Translations under genes and position numbers: made by a program
IMG/VR virus record: IMGVR_UViG_3300012919_000020
Span: 1 to 34,019 of that record
Reading direction: 5' to 3' (one strand)
From: a virus
DNA length: 34,019 nt
Part shown: piece by piece, positions 4,387-28,100 of the stretch
Position numbering within the stretch: position 1 is the first letter of the stretch
Layout: each line of letters opens with the position of its first letter
The notes under the pieces: model-generated
What the model was told of the DNA's origin: nothing
Databases searched by the model: none
The model's input: the letters and a program-made list of their open reading frames with translations, nothing else

Positions 4387-4700
4387 GTGGAAGATGGTTA
4401 AAAAATATACAGGATGGTGAGATTTATGGATGGAATGAAATCCTAGCCGCTAATCCTTTAACTAAAGAAGTTACTGAGGAAGAAGCATTTCCAGAAAAGT
4501 TTATGACTAAAAAACAAAAAGGGCGTAAAGCTAAGGTAAACATGGAAACAGAAGTTGTGGACGACACACCTAAAGTTTCTGAAGAGCTTGAAGAAGAAGC
4601 TACAAAAGGTTTAACCAGAGCTAGAAACGATAAAGGACATTATATAGCTGATGACCCTAATACGCCTGAAAATGAGGCTTGGGTAGATGATTCTAAATGA
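4383..4700 (+). CDS. Acidic hypothetical protein
   Basis: This encodes 105 residues. The N-terminus MSGRWLKNIQDGEIYGWNEILAAN is ordered-looking, followed by a Lys-rich patch (MTKKQKGRKAK) and a long acidic tail (SEELEEEATKG...ENEAWVDDSK). The YGWNEILAANP pattern is seen in small head-completion-region proteins of other phages, but I cannot assign a function. It overlaps the previous gene by ATGA and the next gene by 14 bases, so it is embedded in a coupled operon. Confidence 0.68.
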   Translation: MSGRWLKNIQDGEIYGWNEILAANPLTKEVTEEEAFPEKFMTKKQKGRKAKVNMETEVVDDTPKVSEELEEEATKGLTRARNDKGHYIADDPNTPENEAWVDDSK

Positions 4701-5334
4701 TGTTATAGCAGAAGTCCGAGATCTAATACAGGACACAGATTCTAACGGGTATCGTTATAGCGATGCTGTGTTGTTGAAGTTTGCAAATCAGGTGCTGAGA
4801 AGAACAGCTATATTTAGACCTGATTTGTTTTCTTTGCAGGCAGATCTTACATGTACTGCTGATACAGTGGTACAGTCAGCTCCTGCTGATTCTATTAGAT
4901 TGATGGAAGTTTACTATAACACTAGTGGTAACGGTATTATAGAGACCACAAGAGAAGTGTTAGATCAAGCATATCCTACATGGATGACAGATAATCCTGG
5001 GCCTACAATTAACTGGATTAGAAATATACGTAACCCAAATAAATTTTTTATCTATCCTAAAGCTCCCGCAGCTCATCAGATAGTAATTGAGTATGCACAA
5101 ACACCTCCTATTTATACAGGTGCTCAGGCAGTAGCGTTGCTACCCGATGCGTATTTTCCTGCTATTGTAGATGGAACAGTGTTTTTAGCGGAGTCTATAG
5201 ATAATGAGCATGTTAACTCAAATAGAGCTGCACTTTTCCAGCAGTCCTTCTCGCAAGCACTTGGTATCTCATCTCAGACTAGACAGATCACCGATACAGA
5301 GGGTGGTGGAATACCTGAAGAGGAGGTTGTCTAA
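4687..5334 (+). CDS. Head-tail adaptor protein
   Basis: This encodes 215 residues. The start IAEVRDLIQDTDSNGYRYSD, followed by VLLKFANQVLRRTAIFRPDLF, is the hallmark of a phage adaptor family that binds beneath the portal. The middle has alternating beta segments (NPNKFFIYPKAPAAHQIVIEYAQ) and the C-terminal part is helical (FLAESIDNEHVNSNRAALFQQ). This matches the T7 gp11-type or podoviral adaptor architecture of a helical bundle plus a beta domain. It follows the head genes and precedes a second adaptor-like gene. Its stop and the next start share a TAATG. Confidence 0.78.
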   Translation: MILNDVIAEVRDLIQDTDSNGYRYSDAVLLKFANQVLRRTAIFRPDLFSLQADLTCTADTVVQSAPADSIRLMEVYYNTSGNGIIETTREVLDQAYPTWMTDNPGPTINWIRNIRNPNKFFIYPKAPAAHQIVIEYAQTPPIYTGAQAVALLPDAYFPAIVDGTVFLAESIDNEHVNSNRAALFQQSFSQALGISSQTRQITDTEGGGIPEEEVV

Positions 5335-5987
5335 TGCCAAGGAGATTCGACAGTTTAGTATCCAGACTTTCACCAAGTGTCCCAGGTTGTCCTCAGCCTG
5401 TTATAGAACAGTATGTTCGAGATGCTGCTATAGAAGCATGTGAAAAAACTCTGGCTTACAGACATATACAGACTAAGATACCATTAACAACAGGGGTGTA
5501 TGATTATCCCTATGACCCCCCGACTAACACTGAGGTTCATGCATTTTTGAGTGCTTCTATTGATGGCACTCACATGACACCATTACCGTTAGAAGAGTTT
5601 CAAGATAGATTTCCTAAGTGGCCTGACTTTGTAGCAGCTGATTACGGGATTCCAAGATACATCTCACAACTTGATGCTGATACATTTATTGTAACGCCAA
5701 CGCCTGATAACGCTAAAGTATACGAGTTACGTATGGTTATTGCAGTTAAACCTTTGCGTACTGCATATGAAATGGACACTACAGCGTTTGATGAATTAGA
5801 AAATATTATAATGCACGGAGCACTTCAAAACTTATTGGTCTTACCTGAACGCACATGGTCAGACAGAGAGTTAGCTGCGTATCACGCTAAACAGTTTTTA
5901 TATAAAACAGCAGAGCGTAGAGCTAGGGCTAACCTTGGTGCGGCTAGAAACTCGCTACGTGTTAAACCAGTAGCTTTTGGATGTTGA
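5334..5987 (+). CDS. Second adaptor / head-completion-like structural protein
   Basis: This encodes 217 residues. Features are an N-terminal helix region (SPSVPGCPQPVIEQYVRDAA), then IQTKIPLTTGVYDYPYDPPT, a beta-rich centre ending in a YELRMVIAVKP strand, and helical NIIMHGALQNLLVLPERTWS followed by AAYHAKQFLYKTAERRARA. The layout (helices, beta domain, helical end with ERRARAN) parallels the previous gene and other podoviral tail-connector proteins. It could be the second ring of the connector or a tail-tube component. Identification rests on pattern and place; no enzyme motif is seen. Confidence 0.68.
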   Translation: MPRRFDSLVSRLSPSVPGCPQPVIEQYVRDAAIEACEKTLAYRHIQTKIPLTTGVYDYPYDPPTNTEVHAFLSASIDGTHMTPLPLEEFQDRFPKWPDFVAADYGIPRYISQLDADTFIVTPTPDNAKVYELRMVIAVKPLRTAYEMDTTAFDELENIIMHGALQNLLVLPERTWSDRELAAYHAKQFLYKTAERRARANLGAARNSLRVKPVAFGC

Positions 5988-5995
5988 GGTGATGT

Positions 5996-6328
5996 ATGGC
6001 TGATGTAATTAGATTAGTAAAAGGTAACTCAAAGCCTGATATTATACTTACCTTAACAGATGATTCTACAGGTGGTGCTATTGATCTTAGCGCTGGTACT
6101 ACTTCTGTTAGTGTAAAGTTTCGTAAACAAAACACAACTACTGTGCTATCTACAATTAACTGCTCAAAAGTTAGTGGTGGGGCTACAGGACAAGTACAGT
6201 TTGATTTTTCTAATGGTGTGCTTAACGTAGACCCTGGAATGTATGAAGGTGAAGTAACCATAAGTTTTAATGGTAGTCTTCAAACTGTTTACGATGTAAT
6301 TAAATTTAGAGTACGGGACGACTTCTAA
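5996..6328 (+). CDS. BppU-N-like beta-sandwich baseplate/fibre-attachment protein
   Basis: This encodes 110 residues. The sequence starts ADVIRLVKGNSKPDIILTLTD and continues with alternating strands (SVSVKFRKQ, GQVQFDFSNG, VDPGMYEGEVTISFNGSLQT) ending VIKFRVRDDF. This resembles the N-terminal domain of baseplate upper proteins, which attach adhesins to the virion. It sits directly before the adhesin genes and shares a TAATG overlap with the first. A role as a fibre-docking protein is a reasonable inference; the exact family needs a profile search. Confidence 0.62.
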   Translation: MADVIRLVKGNSKPDIILTLTDDSTGGAIDLSAGTTSVSVKFRKQNTTTVLSTINCSKVSGGATGQVQFDFSNGVLNVDPGMYEGEVTISFNGSLQTVYDVIKFRVRDDF

Positions 6329-8196
6329 TGCCCAACATACGTCTTAAAGCCGCTACTCAAGGTGGTCTGGCTTTGGATGTATCCGCCAGAACTGTTTCTA
6401 GTAGTCATTTAGATGCTGGTGTTTCACTTGTAGTAGAGCCTCAAGATAGTGAAATATTTCTAGCTGCTGATCCAGTTATAACTGAAGTTATATACAGAGC
6501 TTCTGCTCGTGCGTTGCAGCATGAGATATTTATGACGTATGAAGCTATACCAGTTATCAACTTACCAGCAGAAACTATAGTTACCTCAGATACTATTGGG
6601 CCGTTTATTATAGGGTTTAATCCTAGTGATACACCTATCATTACAGATCTTCCTGCGTTTACTATAGGTTTTAACTCTTTAGCTGACTCAGCTACTATCA
6701 CAGATCTACCAGCGTTTGAGCTAGGGCGACCTTTAGCTGATAGCTTTTCTATGTCTGACTCTATAGGGCCGTTTACAGTAGGACTTAATCCTAGTGATAA
6801 TATTAATACATCCGATTCTATTGGGCCATTTACTATAGGTTTTAATCCTAGCGATACACCTGTTGTTACTGATGATCCTACGTTTAGTGTAGGGTTTAAT
6901 TCTTTAGCTGACTCAGCTACCATGTCTGATTCCATAGGGCCGTTTACTATAGGGTTTAATCCTAGCGATACGGCTACCATGTCAGATCTATTTGAACCTA
7001 CTATGTTGTTCAATAGGACATTTGCTGACAGTGCTGCAGCTACTGAAGCTGACGCAAAGACAACCACCAAGGTGTTGCCTTTAGATAAAGAGGACGAAGT
7101 AGCACTTACATATACACAAGCATATGCTTCTGGTGGCGCACAAATTATATTTAACAATAATAATGTAGTGCCAGGTAGAGATCAGAATTGTGCGTGGGCA
7201 GCAGATATACAGCTTAAATCATCTTACTCAGGTGCTGAGTGTATATGGGATGTAGGCGGAGCTTTTCATGGATCTTACCTAGGTATAACTAGCACAGGAA
7301 AACTACGATTCAGAGGTGGGGAAGGTAGAAGTACATTTCAAACTACATCTACAAATGGGTTTGTAGTTGAGATAGATATAGCTGACTACCCACAGTTTTT
7401 TGACAATCAGACGCATACCTTAGCTTGGGATATATCTATGACGGATAAACGAGGTAGGCTATGGATTGATAATCAGCTTGTCATGGAAGAATCTTGTTCT
7501 GGTAATTTAGGTGCTAACGGAGCTGGTCTTTGGGCTGGGGGTAATTTTAGCGGGTTTGGTGTTGGTAAAGGAGGTAGTGTAGCTGGTGGAGGTGATGACG
7601 TAAACCAAACGCTAAATGCTTACACAGGTACTATAACGGGTAATTTACGATTCTATCAAAATCAACTTTACACGGATGTAATAGGAGATTTTGCAACTGC
7701 GTCTGATGCTGCACCTATACATACAATAGGCAAGAATCCGTCTGATAGTGTGTCAGCTTCTGATGTACCAGTGCTTAATGTACTTACAGGGTTTGATGAC
7801 AGTGTTAGTTTAGGCGATGCTTTTTCTCCACAGGTAGCATACAACAGGTCGTTTGCAGATATTGTAACGTTATCTGATGCATCGCCTACCTTTACAGCCA
7901 CTAAACCGATTGACACTAACACATCTACTGCTCAAGTAGACCCTGATCCAGTAGTCATGTTAGACGCACCAGCTATGGCTTTTACTAGAGCACCGTTTAC
8001 AGACAGTGTGTCAGTTTCTCAAAATATAGTTTTACAGCCTATTAAAAGCGTGGTAGATTCAATTAGTGCATCTGACAACACGTATGAGATAGGTGCATCT
8101 TTTGAAGGTGATGGAGGTTTGTTTAATAGCGCCACACTTATTGGCTCATCTCCACCATTTAATGAGGAGTTTGCGTTGCAGACTTTTAGTAACTAG
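6328..8196 (+). CDS. Tail appendage protein with SD-rich repeats and a lectin-like domain
   Basis: This encodes 622 residues. Residues 1-80 form an N-terminal domain. Residues about 83-234 hold imperfect repeats built around SDSIGPFTIGFNPSD and LADSATMSD. Residues about 273-449 look like a concanavalin A/LamG-type jelly roll (CAWAADIQLKSSYSGAECIW, GKLRFRGGEG, HTLAWDISMTDKRGRLWIDN, GTITGNLRFYQ). The C-terminus returns to looser SDSVSASD-type repeats. Such repeats are often extended spacers and the jelly roll a carbohydrate-binding head, which suggests a surface adhesin. The last block, FEGDGGLFNSATLIGSSPPF, may be a small trimerising or capping module. Function is inferred from architecture. 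Confidence 0.68.
   Translation: MPNIRLKAATQGGLALDVSARTVSSSHLDAGVSLVVEPQDSEIFLAADPVITEVIYRASARALQHEIFMTYEAIPVINLPAETIVTSDTIGPFIIGFNPSDTPIITDLPAFTIGFNSLADSATITDLPAFELGRPLADSFSMSDSIGPFTVGLNPSDNINTSDSIGPFTIGFNPSDTPVVTDDPTFSVGFNSLADSATMSDSIGPFTIGFNPSDTATMSDLFEPTMLFNRTFADSAAATEADAKTTTKVLPLDKEDEVALTYTQAYASGGAQIIFNNNNVVPGRDQNCAWAADIQLKSSYSGAECIWDVGGAFHGSYLGITSTGKLRFRGGEGRSTFQTTSTNGFVVEIDIADYPQFFDNQTHTLAWDISMTDKRGRLWIDNQLVMEESCSGNLGANGAGLWAGGNFSGFGVGKGGSVAGGGDDVNQTLNAYTGTITGNLRFYQNQLYTDVIGDFATASDAAPIHTIGKNPSDSVSASDVPVLNVLTGFDDSVSLGDAFSPQVAYNRSFADIVTLSDASPTFTATKPIDTNTSTAQVDPDPVVMLDAPAMAFTRAPFTDSVSVSQNIVLQPIKSVVDSISASDNTYEIGASFEGDGGLFNSATLIGSSPPFNEEFALQTFSN
6574..7030 (+). repeat. Imperfect tandem coding repeats in the appendage gene
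   Basis: The DNA repeats units built around GGGCCGTTTACTATAGGGTT followed by TAATCCTAGYGATAC (for example near 6598, 6768, 6824 and 6939), separated by shorter TTTAACTCTTTAGCTGACTC units (near 6670 and 6897). At protein level they encode GPF[TI][IV]G[FL]NPSD and GFNSLADSAT. The near-identity of some copies points to recent duplication or recombination, so copy number could vary between relatives. Confidence 0.8.
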
Positions 8197-8204
8197 GAGG
8201 TAAT

Positions 8205-8645
8205 ATGTTTAAAGATGAAATCACGGTAACAGGTAAACTAAACGTTATACTTGTTGACCAAATGGGGCTTGTCAAAGAAGAACACGAGTTTGACAACCTA
8301 GTAGTAACTGCAGGTAAAGGTTACATAGCATCACGTATGAAAGATGCTACAGCTACAGCTATGTCGCACATGGCAATTGGCACAGGAACTACAGCAGCTG
8401 CTGCAAACCAAACGACACTAGTTACAGAAGCAAACAGGCAAGCACTCACTAGCACTAACGTGTCAGGTGCTGCTGTTACTTACTCAGCTACATTTGGAGC
8501 AGGTAACGGAACAGGCGCTATTACAGAGGCTGGACTGTTTAACGCTAGTAGTGGCGGCACTATGCTTTGCCGTACAGTTTTTAGCGTAATTAACAAAGGT
8601 GCAGCAGATACGCTAACAGTTTCATGGACAGTAACGGTATCGTAG
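8205..8645 (+). CDS. Phage tail fibre-type beta protein
   Basis: This encodes 146 residues with AGGAGG just before the start. The N-terminal strand VTGKLNVILVDQMGLVKEEH leads into NLVVTAGKGYIASRMKDA, then MSHMAIGTGTTAAA, and finally AITEAGLFN...GGTMLCRTVFS and DTLTVSWTVTVS. The AIGTGTTA and AITEAGLFN pattern is common in small tail-associated or fibre proteins of many phages. It lies between the repeat-rich appendage and the fibre paralogue series, so a structural role in the tail fibre complex is likely. The exact assembly position is unknown. Confidence 0.65.
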   Translation: MFKDEITVTGKLNVILVDQMGLVKEEHEFDNLVVTAGKGYIASRMKDATATAMSHMAIGTGTTAAAANQTTLVTEANRQALTSTNVSGAAVTYSATFGAGNGTGAITEAGLFNASSGGTMLCRTVFSVINKGAADTLTVSWTVTVS

Positions 8646-10724
8646 ATGACAAACTATTCAGAGGTAAAGGTAGCCAACAGTGCTAAAGGTACTTTAGCAG
8701 GGGGCATCTCTGCTAATCAGGGCACTTTATCTTTGTTAGGTGGTGAAGGCGCAAAATTTCCTACATTAAATACAGGTGAATATTTTTATATAACTGTTAC
8801 CTCCGCAGCACTTGCTACTAATACGGAGATTATGCGTGTCACTAGTAGATCTGCCGATACCCTTACTATTAAACAAGCAGATGGATCTGCTAGAAATCTT
8901 AATAATACATTTTCAGCTGGTGATTCTGTAGAACTACGAACTACAGCTAATGCTATTTACGATCTGTTTGATCTAGAAAATATACTACCTGACACACCTG
9001 CACAGCCAGATAAGTTTGGCTTTCGTGTACCATCTGGAGGTATTGGTTCTAGATATATAGGCCCAAACGGTGTAGTTGATGGATCGTCAGAAGACGAAGA
9101 TAGGAAGTTCGCAATCAAATCCGATGGGACGAACGCCACCTACGAAGCTCTCAACCCTAATGATATATCTGATGATAATAATACTTCTACTGGCTTTGTC
9201 AGTATTCCTGTAAGAGGACATCCTTATATACCCCACGAACGTGGGAATTATTTTGTAAAAACTTTAGTAAATAGCTCTACAAATGGTGGTCTCATAGATG
9301 ATTATGAAGGTACTTTGACTGAGCAAACTACGGCTACGATGAATTTATATGCACTTGCTGAAGATCATGATGTGCCTATACAAGAAGGATCTCTAGTACA
9401 GCTGGCTAATATATCTGAAAACAATAGGCTTTATGCTGGGTTTGGTGAACACTTTACAGCATATACTACAACAAATGCAGCTCCGTCTAACATAGTTGTA
9501 ATTAACGATATACGCAGATCTTTGAATATGAATGGTGCGGGCAGTTATAATACAATCAATAATTGGCAAGCAAATGTATTTGTGGGTAGCTTTTTGTTTC
9601 CTCCTGCCGACCTTGCAGGTTTAGTAGACATACCACCTGGGACGTATATAACAAGAGCAGTGACTGCTAATCATGGTACAAATACATATCAGGTTACCCT
9701 CTACTTAAATAATAGTGTAACTCTTCCTGCTACTAAAAGAGTGCAGTTTTATAAGTCAAGACATATGCAGTTAGGGCGAGCTTACAGTGCTTCTCGTCAA
9801 GGTACAGTTTATTACAAGCGTGAAAACACAGCGCCTGCAGCACAAACTATAAACGGTGAGTCAGGCATAAAGAATGTAAAAGAAGATGCATACATGCCTG
9901 TCCCAGGACAGATTGCAAATGTATATACTTGTGTAGTTACTAATAAACGAACATCTACACAATTTAATTTTGATTACGCAACAAATGAAACAAACGGTGC
10001 TTTTGAAACAACTGCAGGTGGTCATTTTGGCGTAACTGTTAAACCACTAAGCGTAAACTCTGTGTTTACTATTAAAGTTTATGCTGGACTGTATTCAAGT
10101 AGTTCATATGCGGGTATGGCGTTCTATTGTGACTATATTGAGGCTGATCCCCAACCAAATAACACAAGAATTTTTAAAAACCCTAGTGATAACACTGCAG
10201 CTAAAGCAGTGTTTTTAATAGGTCGGCATATGTTTATAGATAGGTTTAAACAACCTGAGTTTAACTCAAGCGTGTATAACCCTGGTGGATCTGATAATGG
10301 TACTAGTTATGGGTTTTCTAACGGGCAGATTGTCCCAGGAACATGGCCTGATAACGCTACAGGTATGACTCAGCAGCCTCAAACATTTAATGGATTAAAC
10401 GATTACGTTACTCATAACAATGGTGATGATGTTAATGGTACTGCAGATGACAATCAGTATTTTGCTGCTTCGTGGCATAACCGTACTCATGTTTTTAATG
10501 GCTTAACTGGAACTCATTTTTTTAGACCTGGAGTTACTGATAAAGTAAGGTTTCGATTACAGTTTTATAGAGAAGCTAATAGCGGCACAATGTCTATAAA
10601 CCACGCAGGTGGTCAGGCCACTCTTATGGTTGTGGAAGAATATGTGCAGCCTTATGGTTCGTTTGGATTTGATATACCAGGTGGGCTTGACACTACTGCA
10701 CATTGGCAAGGAAATTTAATATGA
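8646..10724 (+). CDS. Large tail fibre protein, first of three related genes
   Basis: This encodes 692 residues and starts directly after the previous stop. Residues 1-107 form an N-terminal domain (MTNYSEVKVANSAKGTL, NTEIMRVTSRSADTLTIKQADG, AGDSVELRTTANAIYDLFD) that recurs in the next two genes and probably docks to the tail. The middle includes SDDNNTSTGFVSIP, matched in the next gene. A C-terminal beta domain starts near residue 460 (KPLSVNSVFTIKV) and ends in ATLMVVEEYV, also matched there. About 300 residues in the middle are unique and may form the receptor-binding shaft. No enzyme motif is evident. The fibre call is based on this modular pattern and neighbours. Confidence 0.7.
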   Translation: MTNYSEVKVANSAKGTLAGGISANQGTLSLLGGEGAKFPTLNTGEYFYITVTSAALATNTEIMRVTSRSADTLTIKQADGSARNLNNTFSAGDSVELRTTANAIYDLFDLENILPDTPAQPDKFGFRVPSGGIGSRYIGPNGVVDGSSEDEDRKFAIKSDGTNATYEALNPNDISDDNNTSTGFVSIPVRGHPYIPHERGNYFVKTLVNSSTNGGLIDDYEGTLTEQTTATMNLYALAEDHDVPIQEGSLVQLANISENNRLYAGFGEHFTAYTTTNAAPSNIVVINDIRRSLNMNGAGSYNTINNWQANVFVGSFLFPPADLAGLVDIPPGTYITRAVTANHGTNTYQVTLYLNNSVTLPATKRVQFYKSRHMQLGRAYSASRQGTVYYKRENTAPAAQTINGESGIKNVKEDAYMPVPGQIANVYTCVVTNKRTSTQFNFDYATNETNGAFETTAGGHFGVTVKPLSVNSVFTIKVYAGLYSSSSYAGMAFYCDYIEADPQPNNTRIFKNPSDNTAAKAVFLIGRHMFIDRFKQPEFNSSVYNPGGSDNGTSYGFSNGQIVPGTWPDNATGMTQQPQTFNGLNDYVTHNNGDDVNGTADDNQYFAASWHNRTHVFNGLTGTHFFRPGVTDKVRFRLQFYREANSGTMSINHAGGQATLMVVEEYVQPYGSFGFDIPGGLDTTAHWQGNLI

Positions 10725-11908
10725 CAAATTACCATGATATAAAATTTGGAAATAATGCTTATGGTACGTTGTCACAAGCGTACGCTACTACAGCAACATC
10801 TATTGTTTTAACTACAGGAAACGGGGCAAGATTTCCTACACTAACAGGTAGTCAGTATTTTTTTGCTACGTTACTAGATACATCTAATAATTTAGAAATA
10901 ATAAAAGTTACTGCTAGAACTGGCGATACGTTGACAGTTGTTAGAGCACAAGAAGGAACTACAGCTAGAGCGTTTAATACTAACGATAGAATTGAGTTAC
11001 GAGTTACAGCTGGAGGGCTTGCTGTACTAGGTGATCTAGATGAGATACTACCAGATCAATCGGCAGCTAACGGTCAGGTGCTAACAAGTTCAAGTGGTAC
11101 TGCAGGATTTACAGCATTAGATATTACTGATTTCAGTAGTACTAATAATACTAATACAGGGTTTTTTAGTCTACCAAGAGGTACTACAGCACAACGACCA
11201 GGGTCTTCTAACCCTGGATATTTACGATATAACACCGATCATTACGGTGGTGCTAGACCCGAATATTATGCACAGAATAGCGAATGGCTTCCATTAAACT
11301 CGCCTATACTAAATAAATATGTAGTGTGTGCTACAGCAGCAGCCTCAGGAGATCCAGCTCAGGATAATGGTAGATTTCCTACTGCAGGAGGAGCTTGGCA
11401 AGCTGCAGGATTTACTGCAAATCAATTTCCGTTAACTCCTATAAATAACGGAACACATAACATACTATCAATAATTCTTAAGCCAATGTCTGCTAATAGT
11501 GTATTTCTTATAGAAGTGCAGGGGTCTTTTTATAAAAATGGTGGTAGCACTTATGGTTACGCTACAATAGGAAGAACTATAGCTACCACTGCAGCAGGTA
11601 CTACAGCTGCGGCTTCAACAGTAAATGTTGGTCATCTTAGACGAGGCGGAGACGGCACAAGCAATGCTGTAGCTGATGGTGTAGCTGCATGGAATCAGCT
11701 GGCCGATTATCATTGTGGCGGGTTTGCTACTTACGATCAGCCCAACACAACAGATTTTGTAAGGTATTGTATACACTTTAGTAGTAATAGTAATTCCCAC
11801 TATATATATTTTCCTATTTTAGGTATAGGCACTATGACTGTAACAGAGTTAGATGGTACAGGCACAACTAAAGTGGCTACTGATGCCCCATTGGAGGTAA
11901 ATAGCTAA
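10721..11908 (+). CDS. Medium tail fibre protein, second of three related genes
   Basis: I choose ATG at 10721 (395 residues, starting MTNYHDIKFGNNAYGTL) over an upstream TTG at 10703, because it aligns with the start of the preceding paralogue and overlaps its stop as ATGA. The N-terminal domain (NLEIIKVTARTGDTLTVVRA, NTNDRIELRVTA) matches the flanking genes. SSTNNTNTGFFSLPRG resembles the equivalent section upstream. The C-terminal domain begins near residue 250 (KPMSANSVFLIEV) and ends GIGTMTVTELDG, paralleling the larger protein. It appears to be a shortened version with the same ends and a different middle. Confidence 0.7.
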   Translation: MTNYHDIKFGNNAYGTLSQAYATTATSIVLTTGNGARFPTLTGSQYFFATLLDTSNNLEIIKVTARTGDTLTVVRAQEGTTARAFNTNDRIELRVTAGGLAVLGDLDEILPDQSAANGQVLTSSSGTAGFTALDITDFSSTNNTNTGFFSLPRGTTAQRPGSSNPGYLRYNTDHYGGARPEYYAQNSEWLPLNSPILNKYVVCATAAASGDPAQDNGRFPTAGGAWQAAGFTANQFPLTPINNGTHNILSIILKPMSANSVFLIEVQGSFYKNGGSTYGYATIGRTIATTAAGTTAAASTVNVGHLRRGGDGTSNAVADGVAAWNQLADYHCGGFATYDQPNTTDFVRYCIHFSSNSNSHYIYFPILGIGTMTVTELDGTGTTKVATDAPLEVNS

Positions 11909-12414
11909 TGGTTGCTGTAGCTTCAAATAATGTTAAAAGCCAAATAACAGGGGCTATAAATACTTCTGCTACCACAATAAATGTGACTAGTGGTCAAGGT
12001 GCATTGTTTCCTAATGTGTCAAGTTCAGGCACTGATTACTTTTATGCAACACTTATTGATGCAACAGGTAACAATGAAATAGTCAAATGCACTAACAGGT
12101 CTACAGATACGCTAACTGTAGTTAGAGCACAGGATGGTACTACAGCTAGGTCATTTAGTGCAGGTGACAGAATAGAGATGAGAGTTGTAGCTGCACTTGT
12201 AAATGATTTGTTTGTGCAAGCATCAGGTGGCGGTGGACAACGATCAGAGTATTACGGCTTTTATGTAAGTGGCGATGATTTAAAAATAGATTACACAGCT
12301 TCTGGTAGTACTGATAATTATATAGATTCAGATTATCCAGAAACTTTGTTTGTCCCGTCCGATATACAGGTAAGTATAAACGCTAGTGGGCATTTAATAT
12401 TAACAACGAGTTAG
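11908..12414 (+). CDS. Short tail fibre protein, third of three related genes
   Basis: This encodes 168 residues and starts at a TAATG overlap. Residues 1-105 are the shared N-terminal domain (SSGTDYFYATLIDATGNNEI, STDTLTVVRAQDGTTARSF, AGDRIEMRVVAALVNDLF), very close to the preceding gene. It then ends in a compact module, YYGFYVSGDDLKIDYTASG followed by FVPSDIQVSINASGHLILTT, a pattern I have seen in phage fibre proteins. It lacks the long C-terminal domain of its two paralogues. It could be an adaptor that shares the docking site, or a remnant of fibre-gene rearrangement; the intact stop and spacing argue against a pseudogene. Confidence 0.68.
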   Translation: MVAVASNNVKSQITGAINTSATTINVTSGQGALFPNVSSSGTDYFYATLIDATGNNEIVKCTNRSTDTLTVVRAQDGTTARSFSAGDRIEMRVVAALVNDLFVQASGGGGQRSEYYGFYVSGDDLKIDYTASGSTDNYIDSDYPETLFVPSDIQVSINASGHLILTTS

Positions 12415-12423
12415 GATGAAGTT

Positions 12424-14505
12424 ATGGCAACAATAGATGTAGGAAAAATTAAGTTTACTTGGAGGAGTGCTTTTTCCACAAGTAACACTTATGAAAAAGA
12501 TGATGTTGTCAGTTACCAAGGATCCTCATGGGTTTATGTAAACGCTACAAACAAAACAGGATCTGCAGCGGGCGCACCCTCATCAAGTAACTCAAGCCAT
12601 TGGAATTTAATGGCAGATGGAACTAATCCGCTTACTAGCGCTGGCGATATTATGACACATAATGGTAGCGCAGCAACAAGGCTACCTATAGGAAATCAAG
12701 GTCAGTACCTAAAAGTAACATCTAGTAACGCATTAAGTTATGCTAATCAAACTGGATGGGATGATGCAGATATACTAGGTTCTAATGTCCCGTTATATGC
12801 TAAAACGCATGCTACAACACATTATGGTACAGATGGTAAGTATCCTTGGCTTGCACAATATAATGGTAAGTCAGGTGCTAGCGCAGACTGGATACCCTAT
12901 GATGGTTTTGTAAACCCTCCTTGTGGCCCAGTAAGACATGATAAAACGCATCTTGTATCTACGCATACCTGTTTTCCTTTTTTAAATAGTAATCACGAAA
13001 TTTTGATATCAGGATATGCTCACTATGGTTTTACAGGGTATAGCAATGGTAGTTATCACGATCATCTGATGCATATAATGAACTTTGGTATGGAGTTTGG
13101 CAGCATGGATCCAGGGGAGTATTTTGTACGAATCTGGTTTAATCAGCACAGCTTAATGGCTCTAACTAATAAAGGAAATGTATTCTGCCAAGGTGAAAAT
13201 GGCAGTGGTCAGTTAGGACTTGGAGATACTACAGATAGATACCAGTTAGTTAAAAACCCTTACATTGGTGCTCATGCAACTAATAACGGTATCAGTATGG
13301 AAGTAGCAGCAATGTGTACTAACGATGCTGGTGGTTACCAAGGTATGGGTAACACATGTTATTACGCTATTACACATGATGGGCGTTTGTTCCACTGGGG
13401 TTATAACGGAAATGGTATGGGTGGACATGGCGATTCGACTAACAGAAATAAACCTACGTTGGTACAAGGTGTTTCAAACGTAAAACATGTATCTCCAGGG
13501 TATAGAAACTGTTGGATTATTGATGGCAGTGGCAATGCTTTCTTTACAGGAAATAATGATCACGGTGTATCAGGTGCTCTTAATGGAACTAGAAATACTT
13601 TTGGGCAAGACACTTCTATAACTAACGTAGCCCAAATAGCTAACGCCAGCAGCTATTACTACAATGGTGGGGTTATAGGTGGTGCGTATCTAATCAGAGA
13701 TAACGGAGATTTACACCACGCTGGATATAATGGTAATGCACAGGGTGCTACAGGTAATACGACTAACAATACTAACATATGGCGGCAGATGGATACTGGC
13801 AATAATTATGCTGCTGTACATGTAGTTGGTCATGGCAGTACTTATGCTATGATGGCTATGCTGGGTAACTCTTCAGGACAAGATGGCCCAGGTGATGCTT
13901 ATACTTACTGTGTTGCTGCGAATACAGGGTTGCCTATACGTACCGCTGGGTACAATGGTCACGGATTCCGTATGCAAGGTAATACTTCATCTACTACTTC
14001 TGTAACACAGCCAGAAGCTGACAGTTATCCTAGCTATAATCATAGAGATGTTTCTTCTGCAGATGGCACTCTTTCAGAAACTACCGAACCATTCCCTAGA
14101 GATAACATAGTAGCTATCTTCCCGTGTAAAACAAGCGGGTATCAGGTGAATATGGTTTGGATGTTAGATTCCCAACATAGATTATGGATGTCTGGTGTGA
14201 TGGGTGGCAGTGCTTATGAGTACCAAGCTGCTACAGGTACTTCAGCTACTTTTAATAGAGCGTTTTTATGGCCTGCACGTTGGAATCATACCAATGACTC
14301 GCAAGATGGTTTTGATCCAGTTAAAGCTTCTGAGTTAAAAATAATAGATATAAAAAGTGCTGGGCATTATTACAGTGGTTATTGGACTCACTGGGCACGT
14401 ATGGAAGATGGTCAATTATGGATGATAGGAAATAATTACTATTACCAACATGGCACACGGGCCAACCATGCCCACCATCATTGGCATAGGAGGAACCCAG
14501 GATGA
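12424..14505 (+). CDS. RCC1-like beta-propeller adhesin / tail fibre
   Basis: This encodes 693 residues. Residues about 11-62 (FTWRSAFSTSNTYEKDDVVS, then YQGSSWVYV and HWNLMADGT) resemble a small carbohydrate-binding module of the type found in chitinases and many tail fibres. From about residue 240, several segments match RCC1/BLIP-II-type propeller blades: LMALTNKGNVFCQGENGSGQ then LGLGDTTDR; YAITHDGRLFHWGYNGNGMG; CWIIDGSGNAFFTGNNDHGV; YLIRDNGDLHHAGYNGNAQG; MVWMLDSQHRLWMSGV; and ARMEDGQLWMIGNNYYYQHG. Such propellers bind proteins or glycans at the virion surface. It is probably the main host-recognition protein. The C-terminus is His-rich. The next gene overlaps by ATGA. Confidence 0.75.
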   Translation: MATIDVGKIKFTWRSAFSTSNTYEKDDVVSYQGSSWVYVNATNKTGSAAGAPSSSNSSHWNLMADGTNPLTSAGDIMTHNGSAATRLPIGNQGQYLKVTSSNALSYANQTGWDDADILGSNVPLYAKTHATTHYGTDGKYPWLAQYNGKSGASADWIPYDGFVNPPCGPVRHDKTHLVSTHTCFPFLNSNHEILISGYAHYGFTGYSNGSYHDHLMHIMNFGMEFGSMDPGEYFVRIWFNQHSLMALTNKGNVFCQGENGSGQLGLGDTTDRYQLVKNPYIGAHATNNGISMEVAAMCTNDAGGYQGMGNTCYYAITHDGRLFHWGYNGNGMGGHGDSTNRNKPTLVQGVSNVKHVSPGYRNCWIIDGSGNAFFTGNNDHGVSGALNGTRNTFGQDTSITNVAQIANASSYYYNGGVIGGAYLIRDNGDLHHAGYNGNAQGATGNTTNNTNIWRQMDTGNNYAAVHVVGHGSTYAMMAMLGNSSGQDGPGDAYTYCVAANTGLPIRTAGYNGHGFRMQGNTSSTTSVTQPEADSYPSYNHRDVSSADGTLSETTEPFPRDNIVAIFPCKTSGYQVNMVWMLDSQHRLWMSGVMGGSAYEYQAATGTSATFNRAFLWPARWNHTNDSQDGFDPVKASELKIIDIKSAGHYYSGYWTHWARMEDGQLWMIGNNYYYQHGTRANHAHHHWHRRNPG

Positions 14506-14921
14506 GTTTTAAACCTAATTTAACTCGTAAGTTATACGAGACTACATTGTCCTTAGACAAGATAGTACACCCTGAGAAACTTAAAGCTCAGACTGATCCA
14601 GGGGAGGACGAATCTAATGTAAGCCCAATCAAATGGCATCCTCTTTTAAGTGACACTAAGCTATACGTCACTATGTGGGAAGACTGGTTAAGTGATTTTA
14701 ATGCTTTAAATGGTAACACGCTCAAAAAAACTGATGCAGATGGTGTAAACCTAGTAAAAGCTAAATACGCTGATGAGATGCGTTCGGTAGTAAATCTTGA
14801 GGTAACAAACAAATATACAGAAGCTGAGCTTGCTGTTCCTACTGATGCTATAAAAGCAGACATAGCTGCTATAAATGCTAAGGTGCAAGCAGAATATGAT
14901 ACGTTATGGGATATTAGTTAA
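14502..14921 (+). CDS. Hypothetical protein, possible fibre assembly partner
   Basis: This encodes 139 residues. An AGGAGG lies inside the end of the propeller gene, before an ATGA overlap. Visible features are WHPLLSDTKLYVTMWEDWLS and a helical C-terminus (AIKADIAAINAKVQAEYDTLWDI). No TM segment or signal peptide is seen. Small acidic helical proteins directly after adhesin genes often act as assembly chaperones; that is inference from place only. I do not recognise the family. Confidence 0.65.
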   Translation: MSFKPNLTRKLYETTLSLDKIVHPEKLKAQTDPGEDESNVSPIKWHPLLSDTKLYVTMWEDWLSDFNALNGNTLKKTDADGVNLVKAKYADEMRSVVNLEVTNKYTEAELAVPTDAIKADIAAINAKVQAEYDTLWDIS

Positions 14922-15103
14922 TGGCTAGAGTTGGCGAAGTAGAAAAAGATTTAGCAACGCATGAAGCAGTATGTGCAGAGCGTTACGAAATGATTTTATT
15001 CAGAATCAACCGATTAGAGCGTCTTCTAATCGCTTGTGCAGGGATCTTGATCGTGGGATCGGGGTCGGTAATAACAGCCGTACTTTTCAGATTAGGAGGT
15101 TAA
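14921..15103 (+). CDS. XhlA-like small membrane protein, lysis-associated
   Basis: This encodes 60 residues starting at a TAATG. The N-terminal helix (EVEKDLATHEAVCAERYEMI) leads into RINRLERLL and one TM segment at about residues 34-56 (LLIACAGILIVGSGSVITAV). The short amphipathic N-helix plus one TM resembles the hemolysin XhlA-type proteins that accompany holins. It opens the lysis cassette. It could be a second holin or an antiholin; sequence alone does not decide. Confidence 0.68.
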   Translation: MARVGEVEKDLATHEAVCAERYEMILFRINRLERLLIACAGILIVGSGSVITAVLFRLGG

Positions 15104-15104
15104 A

Positions 15105-15239
15105 GTGGCATATACAGTAAAAAAGAAAAATGGGAAAAAGAATGGTAATGGAAGTGGTTTAACAGCCGCTCAAAAAACGTTACCAAAGCAGTTACAAGCT
15201 AAAATAATGAAGAAAAACAAAAACAAGAAGGTGTCATAA
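15105..15239 (+). CDS. Lys-rich mini-protein (44 residues), GTG start
   Basis: GTG at 15105 follows AGGAGG at a suitable distance; the stop is TAA at 15237-15239. The translation starts MAYTVKKKNGKKNGNGSG, followed by LTAAQKTLPKQLQAKI and a Lys/Asn tail. The LTAAQKTLPKQLQAKI section looks like a helix seen in other very small phage structural-region proteins. The GTG start depends on the strong Shine-Dalgarno. Function is unknown; high positive charge suggests interaction with nucleic acid or membrane. Confidence 0.62.
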   Translation: MAYTVKKKNGKKNGNGSGLTAAQKTLPKQLQAKIMKKNKNKKVS

Positions 15240-15240
15240 A

Positions 15241-15354
15241 ATGCCAAATGTAGCAGGAAAAAAGTATGCCTATACTAAAAAAGGTAAAGCGGCTGCAGCA
15301 AAAGCTAAAGCTGAACTAAAGAAAAAGAAAAAGAAAAAGAAGAAAGGTAAGTAG
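15241..15354 (+). CDS. Poly-Lys mini-protein (37 residues)
   Basis: The frame runs from ATG at 15241 to TAG at 15352-15354. The translation starts MPNVAGKKYAYTKKGKAAAA, then KAKAEL, and ends in nine consecutive lysines plus GK. The GKKYAYTKKGKAA start recurs in marine phage mini-proteins. GAAGGTG lies 7-13 bases upstream. It lies one base after the previous gene. The very high charge makes non-specific nucleic-acid binding likely, but its role is not known. Confidence 0.62.
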   Translation: MPNVAGKKYAYTKKGKAAAAKAKAELKKKKKKKKKGK

Positions 15355-15375
15355 TAACGGTATGAGGGTTGTAAC

Positions 15376-15846
15376 ATGGTTGTAGCAGAAGCGCTTGCAG
15401 GTATAGCCCTCGTTAAATCTGCTGTAGAAGGTATTAAAAGTACTATTGCTACAGCAAATGATGTGGGAGATATAGCAAAGCATGTAGACAAATTATTGCA
15501 AGGTCGAGACGAAGCGCAGAAAGCTAAGCGTGAAGCTAGCAGTGATCCTTTTAGTATCAAGAGTATTGCAGAAGAGACTATAAACGCAAAGCTAGCCGAA
15601 GAACATCTTGATGATATGCGACAGCTTATTGACCACAGATTTGGATTTGGAACGTGGCAAGGTATTATAGCAGAAAGGGCTAGAAGAATACATGAAGCCA
15701 AAGAAGCAGAGAAAGAATTAAAACGGAGAAAGATGAAAGAACGAGAAGAACTTAGAGAGACCGTCACTATTGGCGGCACTGTGATTATCGGTCTTGTAAC
15801 TTTAGCTGTTGCAATAGTTTTTCTGTTTAGGAGTATGTTTAGATGA
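15376..15846 (+). CDS. Coiled-coil protein with C-terminal membrane anchor
   Basis: This encodes 156 residues. A helical N-terminal region (ALAGIALVKSAVEGIKSTIA) is followed by a charged coiled coil (LLQGRDEAQKAKREAS; later RARRIHEAKEAEKELKRRKM) and one strong TM segment at about residues 129-150 (TVIIGLVTLAVAIVFLF). The centre has DMRQLIDHRFGFGTWQGI. The topology places most of the protein in the cytoplasm. Its position in the lysis cassette suggests a spanin-like, antiholin or membrane-organising role, but there is no lipobox or signal peptide to support spanin specifically. It overlaps the next gene by ATGA. Confidence 0.65.
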   Translation: MVVAEALAGIALVKSAVEGIKSTIATANDVGDIAKHVDKLLQGRDEAQKAKREASSDPFSIKSIAEETINAKLAEEHLDDMRQLIDHRFGFGTWQGIIAERARRIHEAKEAEKELKRRKMKEREELRETVTIGGTVIIGLVTLAVAIVFLFRSMFR

Positions 15847-25124: not shown

Positions 25125-28100
25125 ATGGCGCTTGAAGACTTGAATCCATATGGTAAAGCAGGACTACAATCTTTCCAATCAAGAACCCTAAACTCTATGG
25201 ACTCTAATCCTGATGTGCCAAGGGTTACTGACTTCTATTCTAACTATGGAGCTATGGGAACTGATCAGTTAGTAGCACCAGATCTAAGTGGTTTTGCTAG
25301 AGGTATCGCTTCTGCAGCTCAAGTAAATAGAATTGCTGATATACAAGAACCTAGTGTCGGGTTCAATGAGCTTACCAATCAAGTATTTGTAAATGGTCTT
25401 ACGTTTGATGCTGATGATTACCAAACAGCAGACCGATCAGCTACCCCTGAGTATCTAGGTAGAACACCCACAGGTTTGCCTGAAGGCTTTAGCAGGTTAG
25501 ATCCTGAGTTATATGCTCAATACATAAAAGATATTAGAGATCCAGGTCTAGGTCGCTTTTTTGCAAAGAATATTGGTATTGGTGCTGATAACCTACAAAA
25601 CTTTTACTACTCAGGCGCTGCTTTTCTTGGTGATTCTATTGGTTCTGAAACTATAAGTGAGTACGGGCGTGAAGGTATAAAACAACAGACAGAAGATCTA
25701 AGACGTAAAGAGCCATTCAACTATGTATTGACTGAAGATGTAGATGATGTTGAGTCAGGTATTAAATGGTTTGTAGGACAGCTAGGACAACAAGGGCCAA
25801 ACCTTCTTGAGTCAATGGCTGCGTTCTTAGTTGGTGCAGGTGCAGCTACAGTTGCAACAGGTAATCCTCTAGCTGGTGTTGTAAGTGGCGTTGGTGCAGC
25901 TCTTGGTAAAGGGCAGTTCAGAAAAAGAATTATGGATATTGTAGCCAAGAAAAGGCGTGGAGAAAGATTAGATCAAGGAGACTATGCATTAATAAAAGGT
26001 ATGTCTGGTATAGCTGCTGCTATTGGAAACAGTTATAGAACAGGTGTCAGCGATACATATCTACAACTTCTTGAGTCTGCAGAGATGAAAGACCCAGGAG
26101 CAGGTCAACGGCTTTTTGCATTAGCCGCAGGTGTACCGTATGCCCTAGCTGAGACAGCGTCAGAAGCATTTGTTGTAAGTAAGTTCTTAAATCCAGTTGG
26201 TGCTAAGAGTGCATTTAGGCGGATTTTAACTGGGTTTGGAGCTGGTGCTGCAGCAGAGGGTGCAGCAGAGGGCGTACAAGAATCTATTGTTATGGGTTCA
26301 GATGCATTTTTAAATGATAAAGAATTTTTAACAGAACAAAACGGTATACAACTTATCAACGCTATAGCTGCAGGTGCAGCTGTTGGTGGCCCAATCACAG
26401 GACTTAGTGGACTACGCAGAGGTGATACAAACGAAGTTAACTTACTAGATAGTAGGGGGGTAACTGATGAAGGTGGGGGTACAGCTACTGTACAAGAAGA
26501 ATCTCCACAAGGTGAGTTGTTCCCTGATGCCGATTTAGGTACGGCTCCTGTACCTGAAGGCCCACTTCAAGGCGAACTATTTCCTCCAGAAACAAACCTT
26601 GGAGTGGGTGTACAATTAGATCGTCCGATTGAAGAACAAGGTAATCTTATTAGCCCTGAGCAAGCACAGTTTGATATGTTTGACCCAGAGCAGTTACAAA
26701 ATAGAATACCATCCCAGCAACCTGGGTTTGCAGGTTTACAAATACCTATACAACAAGAGCTACCTCTTGGTTATCCTGATCCAGTTCAGTTAGATTTACC
26801 ACTACCACCCCCAGCTGAGCCTGAGACAATTACACAGTCTCCTCCTCAAGAGGCGCAGTTATCATTGCCTTTTGATGATGCACCTAGAATGCGCCGCCCT
26901 AATGACATATTTGTTCCAGACGAACCTGTGCTAACACCCGCTGTTGAGGAGGATACAACACAGAAAGCATCAAAGCAGAAGCAACTGACTGATAACATAA
27001 AGCAGTCAGAGACAGAATTTAATCCGTCCACCGTGCCGCAACTTGTTGACAGACGAGATAAAAAAGACTTGCCTGCTACTGCCAAAGGTGAAAACCAAAT
27101 ATCTGGTGGTAAGCAAGAAGGTAAAATATCAGATCCTGTATCAAGAAAAGCTGAGTTTGATAAAATAGACTATGTAAGTCCCGACCTGGGTATTATACCT
27201 CCGCAGGTAATGCAGGATAAATATGCTGCAGCGATGAGGAAAATTAAACTAGTAGACGCTAAGTTTAAAAATAGAAAAAAGAAAGGTACAGAACCTACAA
27301 GATGGAAAGGTGCTCATCATAATGGTGGCATTGCTCTTAGAACAGACCTTCCATTCTCTCAACCTATAACTGCTGATCTTATTGCACATGAGTTGGGTCA
27401 TGCATCCCATTCATTGTTAGGTGATCAAATCAATAACAACCCTGAGGTACTAGCAGAGCTACAAGCTATTGAGCAGACTTTGTATCCTGGGCTACGGGCT
27501 ATAATAGAGCAGGCTATAAACGATGGTAAAAAACTAGACAACGAGTTCTTTAACTATCTGTTGTCACCAGAAGAACTTATTGCTGAGTTTAATGTGTTTA
27601 GGTTAAAGCAGCCAGAGCAAGCAGCTCAAATAGCTCCTGTTTTAAGCCAACTACTAGAGTCAGTAGAGCAAGCTCCTAATCTGGTTGTTGATCGTAAGAC
27701 ATTTCCTACAGGGTTTGGGACTATTGTAACTAAGACTACAGGTAATTTTAACGGTGATCTTAACCTTAGTATCAATCAACAAGATCAAAAAATAGGACGT
27801 AAAAACGCACGACTGAAGAAGGGAGTTAAAAAAGAGGAGGTCAAAGATGCCATTCAAGAGTCAGAAACAACGCAGGTGGATGCACAAGAACAAGCCGAAG
27901 ATGGCAAAGGAGTGGGAGAAAAAGTACAAGAAACCACCAGGGTACGTCCTAAAGAAAAAAGCCTCAAAAAAGGCAAAGGCAAAAAGCAGAGTGTTCAGGC
28001 TAACACGGAACGAGACACTACCGTCAATGCCGAGAAGACGGAGCCGAAGACCGAGAAGCGCATAAGAGCTTTCAAAAAATCTGATTTATTTAATGAGGAT

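Follow-up and report, generated by a model that had tools for sequence, protein, structure and literature searches.

Three fibre genes lie in succession on the forward strand of the window (the whole stretch of viral DNA analyzed, 34,019 nucleotides). Fibre gene 1 (8646..10724, 692 aa) and fibre gene 2 (10721..11908, 395 aa counted from an ATG, or 401 aa if an alternative TTG start at 10703 is used) have 4 bases (ATGA) in common; gene 2 in turn overlaps fibre gene 3 (11908..12414, 168 aa) by 1 base (TAATG). Re-reading of the open reading frames confirmed the coordinates and lengths in the initial annotation of this locus. All three products begin with an N-terminal docking domain (N-domain) of approximately 100 aa, encoded at 8646..8969, 10721..11032, and 11908..12210 and referred to below as the slot-1, slot-2, and slot-3 types. 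In gene 1, the N-domain (residues ∼1–108) is followed by a linker to residue ∼190, a middle of its own (∼195–455), and a C-terminal domain (∼460–665). Gene 2 combines its N-domain (∼7–104) with a linker and generic fibre module (∼130–185) and a C-terminal domain (∼240–380). Gene 3, as originally described, consists of the N-domain (1–101) and a short, 67-aa end module.

The array is placed after adaptor genes, a position resembling that in Lessievirus. Two adjacent adaptor-type genes precede it on the same strand: a phrog_399 gene (4687..5334), predicted to encode an adaptor-type structural protein, and an SU10-type adaptor gene (5334..5987; PF24175 above cut-off, phrog_437), whose product is a candidate part of a fibre-carrying tail hub. 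At the equivalent position, BcepIL02 and DC1 encode a "structural protein" followed by a "virion structural protein," the second of which was matched by tblastn. The gene directly upstream of the array (8205–8645) matched PF23140 (Gp80) below cut-off and 8jou chain a with an E-value of 0.42. Sequence searches found no solved relative for the repetitive protein encoded at 6328–8196 or for the product of 5996–6328. These three genes were considered as parts of fibre I of phage GP4 and remain leads. Downstream of the array, a 2941-aa ORF, inspected as a possible giant DarB-like protein, matched only phrog_11358, a family of unknown function. No tRNA, including the serine tRNA that along with a recombinase and a repressor is a Lessievirus trait, was found in the window; the record is a genome fragment. 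A promoter scan of 8000–15500 was uninformative, since it yielded fewer sites (20) than shuffled sequences (24.2).

BLASTP alignments demonstrated that the N-domain is common to all three genes, as had been proposed from inspection of the sequence. Genes 1 and 2 shared 35% identity over 190 columns of N-domain and linker (E 8e-24), while N-domain identities were 52% over 98 columns for genes 2 and 3 (E 8e-28) and 40% over 103 columns for genes 1 and 3 (E 1e-16). The SxDTLT motif by which the domain had been recognized is shared in a slightly different form, gene 2 having T-x-D-T-L-T instead of S-x-D-T-L-T. When all six reading frames of the window were scanned with an N-domain HMM, the only hits were the three fibre ORFs, and of the reversed ORFs used as controls none matched at E ≤ 10; because the three sequences had been included in the HMM, this result speaks to uniqueness, the evidence for homology being the pairwise E-values. 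All three products matched phrog_8469, "tail fiber protein" (E 9e-22, 2e-28, and 3e-30 for genes 1–3), and Pfam recognized no domain in any of them.

Genes 1 and 2 also proved to share their C-terminal domain and the section ending in TGF[VF]S[IL]P, with unrelated middles, in agreement with the earlier description. Comparison of the C-terminal domains by hhalign gave a probability of 97.6% (E 4.7e-12; best of 30 column shuffles 0.84%), the strand containing KP[LM]S..SVF reached 94.2% (best of 30 shuffles 4.1%), and the linker reached 96.4%. The middles scored only 0.76%, so that no relation between them was seen. Genes 1 and 2 have linker and C-terminal domain in one and the same order; gene 3 shares neither. 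Since the shared parts of genes 1 and 2 are collinear, similarity confined to low-complexity strands in no consistent order did not occur; BLASTP E-values, hhalign shuffles, and the reversed-ORF control together excluded chance or low-complexity similarity. The tip of gene 1 gave no Pfam match and no PHROG match outside the N-domain, and a Pfam scan of two relatives was likewise negative. A structural model of the gene-2 C-terminal domain resembled Pgp3, BC2L-C, and PLTL (VIA-align Z 10.2–10.9; Z 10.2 to both the BC2L-C N-terminal domain and PLTL, which are TNF-like lectins). Because this model was poor (mean pLDDT 47.5), the domain is only tentatively assigned as a TNF/C1q-like jelly roll.

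A profile search of solved structures returned a single significant match to the N-domain, PDB 8jov (E 2.2e-31; next best 0.093), entitled "Portal-tail complex of phage GP4." The individual E-values for genes 1–3 were 1.4e-08, 4.9e-22, and 2.7e-19. Fold comparison, done on gene 3 alone, agreed with this result: the AlphaFold2 model of the slot-3 N-domain (block means 86–97) matched chain 1 of 8jov with a Foldseek E-value of 1.7e-08 and a VIA-align Z of 16.2 over 116 residues (rmsd 3.0). The 8jov entry contains 18 copies of the tail fibre of GP4, a Ralstonia phage of the genus Gervaisevirus, whose N-domain is thus alike in both sequence and fold. The structural match covers only residues 4–119 of this 439-aa fibre. 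In the GP4 structure paper, such fibres are said to be arranged as six trimers on the nozzle. A homologue of the same length in Ralstonia phage Gamede is named Peptidase S74, whereas the tips encoded in the window differ. Because they share this N-domain with a fibre seen in the solved portal-tail complex of GP4, the three genes are predicted to encode tail-attached fibres, and these results support the N-domain as a tail-attachment domain, the docking role assigned to it initially. Pairs of N-domain genes also occur in phages that carry baseplate J-like genes; the domain is therefore not tied to one tail type.

All three slots were present in 12 contigs, including the window, some of them near-identical. 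Among relatives, the slot-1 product ranged from 679 to 1071 aa and the slot-3 product from 168 to 464 aa. Given this wide variation, the series of 692, 395, and 168 residues, which had been read as a shrinking set of fibres, carries no meaning. Related phages were also sampled by anchoring on the capsid gene. All 15 contigs that extended 9 kb or more downstream carried two or three N-domain genes; several contigs were near-identical. One contig with a capsid protein of 75% identity belongs to a Paraglaciecola MAG. Ten loci with 6–9 kb downstream contained one (seven loci) or two (three loci) such genes, and the remaining 55 of the 80 loci, with less than 6 kb downstream, were left uncounted.

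N-domains clustered by slot rather than by genome in 30/30 rows (10 slot-1, 11 slot-2, and 9 slot-3). Between slots they averaged 35–48% identity, with slot-specific residues in 22 of the 43 columns that are strongly conserved. Sequence comparison thus identifies the copies as old, position-specific paralogues. The view of the fibre genes as paralogues in the initial annotation is supported, but the slot-wise clades ruled out recent duplication within this genome. The copies may or may not have a single origin inside this lineage (AU p 0.105, in a test that left out two long rows, slot 1 of L121 and one row of Itty13, L027).

Behind the slot-3 N-domain, different tips were found among relatives, in line with the proposal of different tips on a shared domain. 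The third gene encoded 168 aa in 11 of 13 copies (relatives and window) and 459 and 464 aa in the other two, which carried Peptidase_S74 or glycine-rich tips; Gly_rich_2 was recognized above cut-off in one contig (L003) and Peptidase_S74 in another (L120). These data support modular tips: the occupant of slot 3 differs among relatives, some having the short 67-aa module and others a Peptidase_S74 chaperone or a glycine-rich domain. The shortness of gene 3, and the occupation of its slot by much longer versions in two relatives, might suggest a truncated fibre in decay. Such decay is very improbable: besides the constant length, other 168-aa third genes were 79–90% identical to that of the window (6 rows aligned), median omega was 0.13 for the N-domain and 0.12 for the rest (30 pairs each), and comparable short forms of 166–174 aa occurred in five other contigs (L018, L073, L082, L125, and L144). 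Gene 3 is under purifying selection, which together with its constant length led to rejection of decay. Still shorter genes of 106–117 aa, encoding the docking domain only, were found in 21 of 63 N-domain groups (merged at >93% N-domain identity, the window itself being skipped), a count that is biased because the scan query was itself such a gene. Outside that scan, a docking-only gene was seen only in L018 and its near-copy L019, whose gene had served as the query. In an open-access library searched for paralogous fibre arrays, no listed title or abstract opening mentioned stand-alone docking-domain genes.

The slot-specific N-domains also bear on the idea that several tips share one docking site, and make separate sites at least as likely as a single one. 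Competition of the fibres for equivalent sites, which would give mixed or single-type virions, a heterogeneous population, and a broad host range, has been put forward in print for Lessievirus; the CSP3 paper does so with reference to Gill et al. (PMC10269572). It would fit the virion mass-spectrometry list of the Lessievirus phage JC1, which includes one of three array fibres (gp56); gp57 and gp59 are named once each in the JC1 text, both in the gene list. However, each slot is set apart from the others by a branch of the tree, and 22 of the 43 strongly conserved columns differ between slots. This speaks against competition, since copies in free competition would rather be expected to swap or become homogenized, although old duplicates that never underwent gene conversion would yield the same tree; we regard this alternative as possible but doubtful. 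The same observations favor an own place for each slot's N-domain, for example on different adaptor or nozzle rings or sub-sites, with all three fibres on one virion. The two adjacent adaptor genes upstream are consistent with such an arrangement, and the PhiGT1 paper (PMC10386132) asks whether the dual tubeA of PhiGT1 is linked to the excess of fibre genes in that phage, noting a dual tubeA in Bcep22-like phages as well. Against it stand the JC1 list, because of which co-assembly is unproven, and the N-domain pairs beside baseplate J-like genes, so that we consider separate positions a tentative reading with somewhat less than even odds. By analogy with JC1, some array members may be absent from virions or scarce. 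It is conceivable, though unlikely, that the docking domains are specialized to the extent that each paralogue has its own hub position and that short members (168 aa, or the docking-only products of 106–117 aa elsewhere) are not failed fibres but ring parts that fill or space positions and thereby set the number of long fibres.

The preferred interpretation, to which we assign a probability of about 0.8 as a whole, is that the fibre genes are a tightly packed array of a marine, short-tailed podophage related to Lessievirus and GP4. In the proposed mechanism, the genes would be co-transcribed, and the beta-barrel N-domain of each protein would attach a fibre (trimeric by analogy) to the short tail, around portal, adaptor, and nozzle. 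Behind this common docking type, the distal part would be particular to each protein: gene 2 may end in a trimeric TNF/C1q-like knob contacting a cell-surface receptor, as may gene 1 given its homologous C-terminal domain, and gene 3 would be a complete mini-fibre of docking domain and short end module. Tips would be exchanged behind old, position-specific docking domains. The array offers a clean case for a question from the literature, whether podophages with several fibre genes mount the fibres together or on different virions, and whether this goes with an unusual tail hub that contains two adaptor genes. Slot-specific N-domains allow direct predictions, of three separable hub sites as against one shared site, and the stand-alone docking-domain genes elsewhere point to a possible control of fibre number.

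Several receptor-binding proteins per phage are likewise found in the branched tailspike complexes of Ackermannviridae. In CBA120, one spike (TSP4) anchors the complex to the baseplate, whereas in the window every member has an anchor domain. The long tail fibre collar of Pseudomonas phage DEV, a further comparable system, is formed by one fibre protein (gp53). The closest parallel is provided by Lessievirus (the Bcep22-like phages BcepIL02, DC1, CSP3, JC1, and BcepMigl), for which arrays of three to four fibre genes have been published; as in the window, these are neighboring N-domain genes located after adaptor genes. Their fibres measure 292–424 aa, and the 168-aa mini-fibre is not seen there. 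In BcepIL02, DC1, CSP3, and JC1, a gene of 166–172 aa, in which the N-domain was not found, divides the first two fibres from the rest. Lessievirus N-domains form their own clade, outside which those of the window fall. With at least three neighboring fibre genes that have a common N-domain, as in Lessievirus, the array is an ordinary though tidy example of an arrangement already known in related phages.

Fibre genes 1 (8646-10724, 692 aa), 2 (10721-11908, 395 aa) and 3 (11908-12414, 168 aa) follow one another on the plus strand, with overlaps of four bases between genes 1 and 2 and one base between genes 2 and 3. Pairwise comparison made the homology of their N-terminal docking domain (N-domain) certain, and this domain was found in exactly three ORFs of the window, genes 1-3. 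Genes 1 and 2 also share, in conserved order, a linker (hhalign, 96.4%), a KP[LM]S..SVF strand (94.2%, against at most 4.1% in 30 shuffles) and the final domain (97.6%, E = 4.7e-12, against at most 0.84% in 30 shuffles), with unrelated middles that gave no hhalign match (0.76%). Gene 3 consists of the N-domain and 67 further residues and retains nothing else.

All three proteins matched phrog_8469 ('tail fiber protein'), and the sole solved relative with a significant match to the N-domain was a 439-aa tail fibre in PDB entry 8jov, entitled 'Portal-tail complex of phage GP4'. Gene 3 was modelled with AlphaFold2 from 72 sequences; the model showed block means of 86-97 across residues 1-100 and matched 8jov chain 1 (Foldseek E = 1.7e-08; VIA-align Z 16.2, 116 residues), the match being confined to residues 4-119 of that chain. 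Genes 1-3 thus have in common a docking domain of the type seen in a tail-complex fibre. The 8jov entry contains 18 fibre copies, which reportedly form six trimers on the nozzle. Fibres encoded by genes 1-3 would be trimers attached to the tail hub, and their distal parts would contact the cell surface. For the DEV fibre, a published account describes 15 N-terminal blocks that form a GP4-like collar (PMC10925440).

In a tree of 88 N-domains (including 10 rows for slot 1, 11 for slot 2 and 9 for slot 3, slots being array positions in the window and its relatives), whose deeper forks were limited by the small number of columns, a single branch set each slot apart from the other rows (support 100/99 for slot 1, 100/98 for slot 2 and 94/67 for slot 3). 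Eight of the nine slot-3 rows grouped at support 100/97, and Lessievirus N-domains formed a separate clade. Mean N-domain identity was 71-81% within slots and 35-48% between slots; 43 columns reached at least 80% fixation in every slot, of which 21 carried the same residue and 22 differed. An AU test on 29 rows did not reject a single origin of the family's N-domains (p-AU 0.105). These slot-wise N-domains favour separate docking sites for the paralogues, a reading that we hold tentatively (probability about 40%), although old duplicates without gene conversion would give the same pattern and the virion list of phage JC1, which includes gp56 and lacks gp57 and gp59, speaks against co-assembly. 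Slot-wise divergence counts against a single common site, for which the fibres would compete or which would differ in its fibre from virion to virion, a somewhat doubtful arrangement that the CSP3 authors suggested (PMC10269572). The initial annotation's observation of three fibre genes with shared ends stands, and its interpretation, intra-genome duplication with one docking site, holds only in part.

Median omega values for the N-domain and the rest were 0.13 and 0.12 in gene 3 (30 pairs each), 0.08 and 0.20 in gene 2, and 0.17 and 0.36 in gene 1. All three array genes are conserved. Low omega in both parts ruled out gene 3 as a relic; though short, it is functional.

Complete three-gene arrays were present on 12 contigs, the window included, some of them near-identical; other contigs carried one or two array genes, truncated by contig ends. 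Slot 1 ranged from 679 to 1071 aa in relatives, slot 2 from about 392 to 395 aa (complete copies), and 11 of 13 third genes encoded 168 aa. The remaining two, of 459 and 464 aa, contained Peptidase_S74 and Gly_rich_2, respectively, above the Pfam cut-off; in slot 3 the tip has therefore been swapped behind a conserved docking domain. Slot-1 fibres on related contigs included those of L004 (2786-6001, 1071 aa), whose middle part contains large insertions, and L120 (4873-7992, 1039 aa). Distal parts differ among genes 1-3. The gene 2 model was poor overall (mean pLDDT 47.5), and its C-terminal domain aligned with Pgp3 and TNF-like lectins (VIA-align Z 10-11). The modelled gene 2 tip is tentatively taken as a likely TNF/C1q-like knob, and the gene 1 tip would be a related knob via last-domain homology. 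Residues 132-211 of gene 2 matched several families of phage proteins whose function is unknown.

Other contigs also encode the docking domain alone, in genes of 106-117 aa that mostly adjoin a longer N-domain gene. Such stand-alone genes (21 of 63 groups, in a sample biased by the query) form a real class despite this bias. Examples in the 108-117 aa range lie on contigs L131 (6001-6330) and, adjoining a second N-domain gene, L157 (6001-6327), L175 (7712-8065) and L018 (5986-6312). These genes are the basis of a rather unlikely reading, in which short docking proteins would act as spacers that set fibre number.

The gene content of the window (34,019 bases, about 40% G+C) reads as a podophage late module, comprising a portal end, major head protein, two adjacent adaptor-type proteins, fibre genes, RCC1-like protein, holin, endolysin, internal virion protein and a 2941-aa protein; with its portal-type ORF truncated at the start, the record is possibly incomplete. 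At 6328-8196 (+), a 622-aa protein consists largely of S-D-S-I-G-P-F-x-x-G-x-N repeats at spacings of 57, 114 and 168 nt, with counterparts of 622, 416 and 277 aa on contigs L002, L003 and L004. Sequence search found no solved relative of this protein, which may be the equivalent of the elongated rope protein in fibre I of GP4. The 146-aa protein at 8205-8645 (+) matched Phage_tail_fib (PF12571) above cut-off and, weakly and below cut-off, PF23140, the family of the fibre I protein of GP4; its relatives occur in Achromobacter and other phages. Directly 3' of the array, 12424-14505 (+) encodes an RCC1-like propeller protein (693 aa) that has a CBM_5_12-like section at its start, matched a phage tail-fibre family and is likely a fourth fibre with an odd propeller. 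Terminator-like sites in 8000-15500 numbered 13, versus 4.4 ± 2.4 in shuffles, and lay mostly within genes. The 2941-aa ORF (25125-33950, +), whose sole match was phrog_11358 (function unknown) near the C-terminus, is positioned where Lessievirus has a DarB-like giant. Contig L193 (NZ_CAKZKO010000094.1), with one N-domain ORF and a head protein 75% identical to that of the window, sits in an uncultured Paraglaciecola MAG and thus provides a weak hint to the host group.

A sample anchored on the major head protein, without selection by fibre, contained 15 loci with at least 9 kb downstream among the top 80 out of at least 599 matches; 13 of these 15 carried two N-domain genes and two carried three. 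The PhiGT1 authors noted that Bcep22-like phages have an adjacent pair of tubeA genes, and asked whether the unusual tail hub of PhiGT1 is connected with the excess of fibre genes in that phage (PMC10386132). The window has two adjacent adaptor-type genes (4687-5987, +; phrog_399, then phrog_437/SU10 adaptor), which resemble this dual tubeA arrangement, and therefore fits their question; N-domain pairs are present also in phages with baseplate J-like genes, which argues against a strict link between hub and fibre excess. The multi-gene fibre arrangement itself is already known: the Lessievirus isolates BcepIL02, DC1 and CSP3 each have four N-domain genes, and JC1 and BcepMigl each have three.
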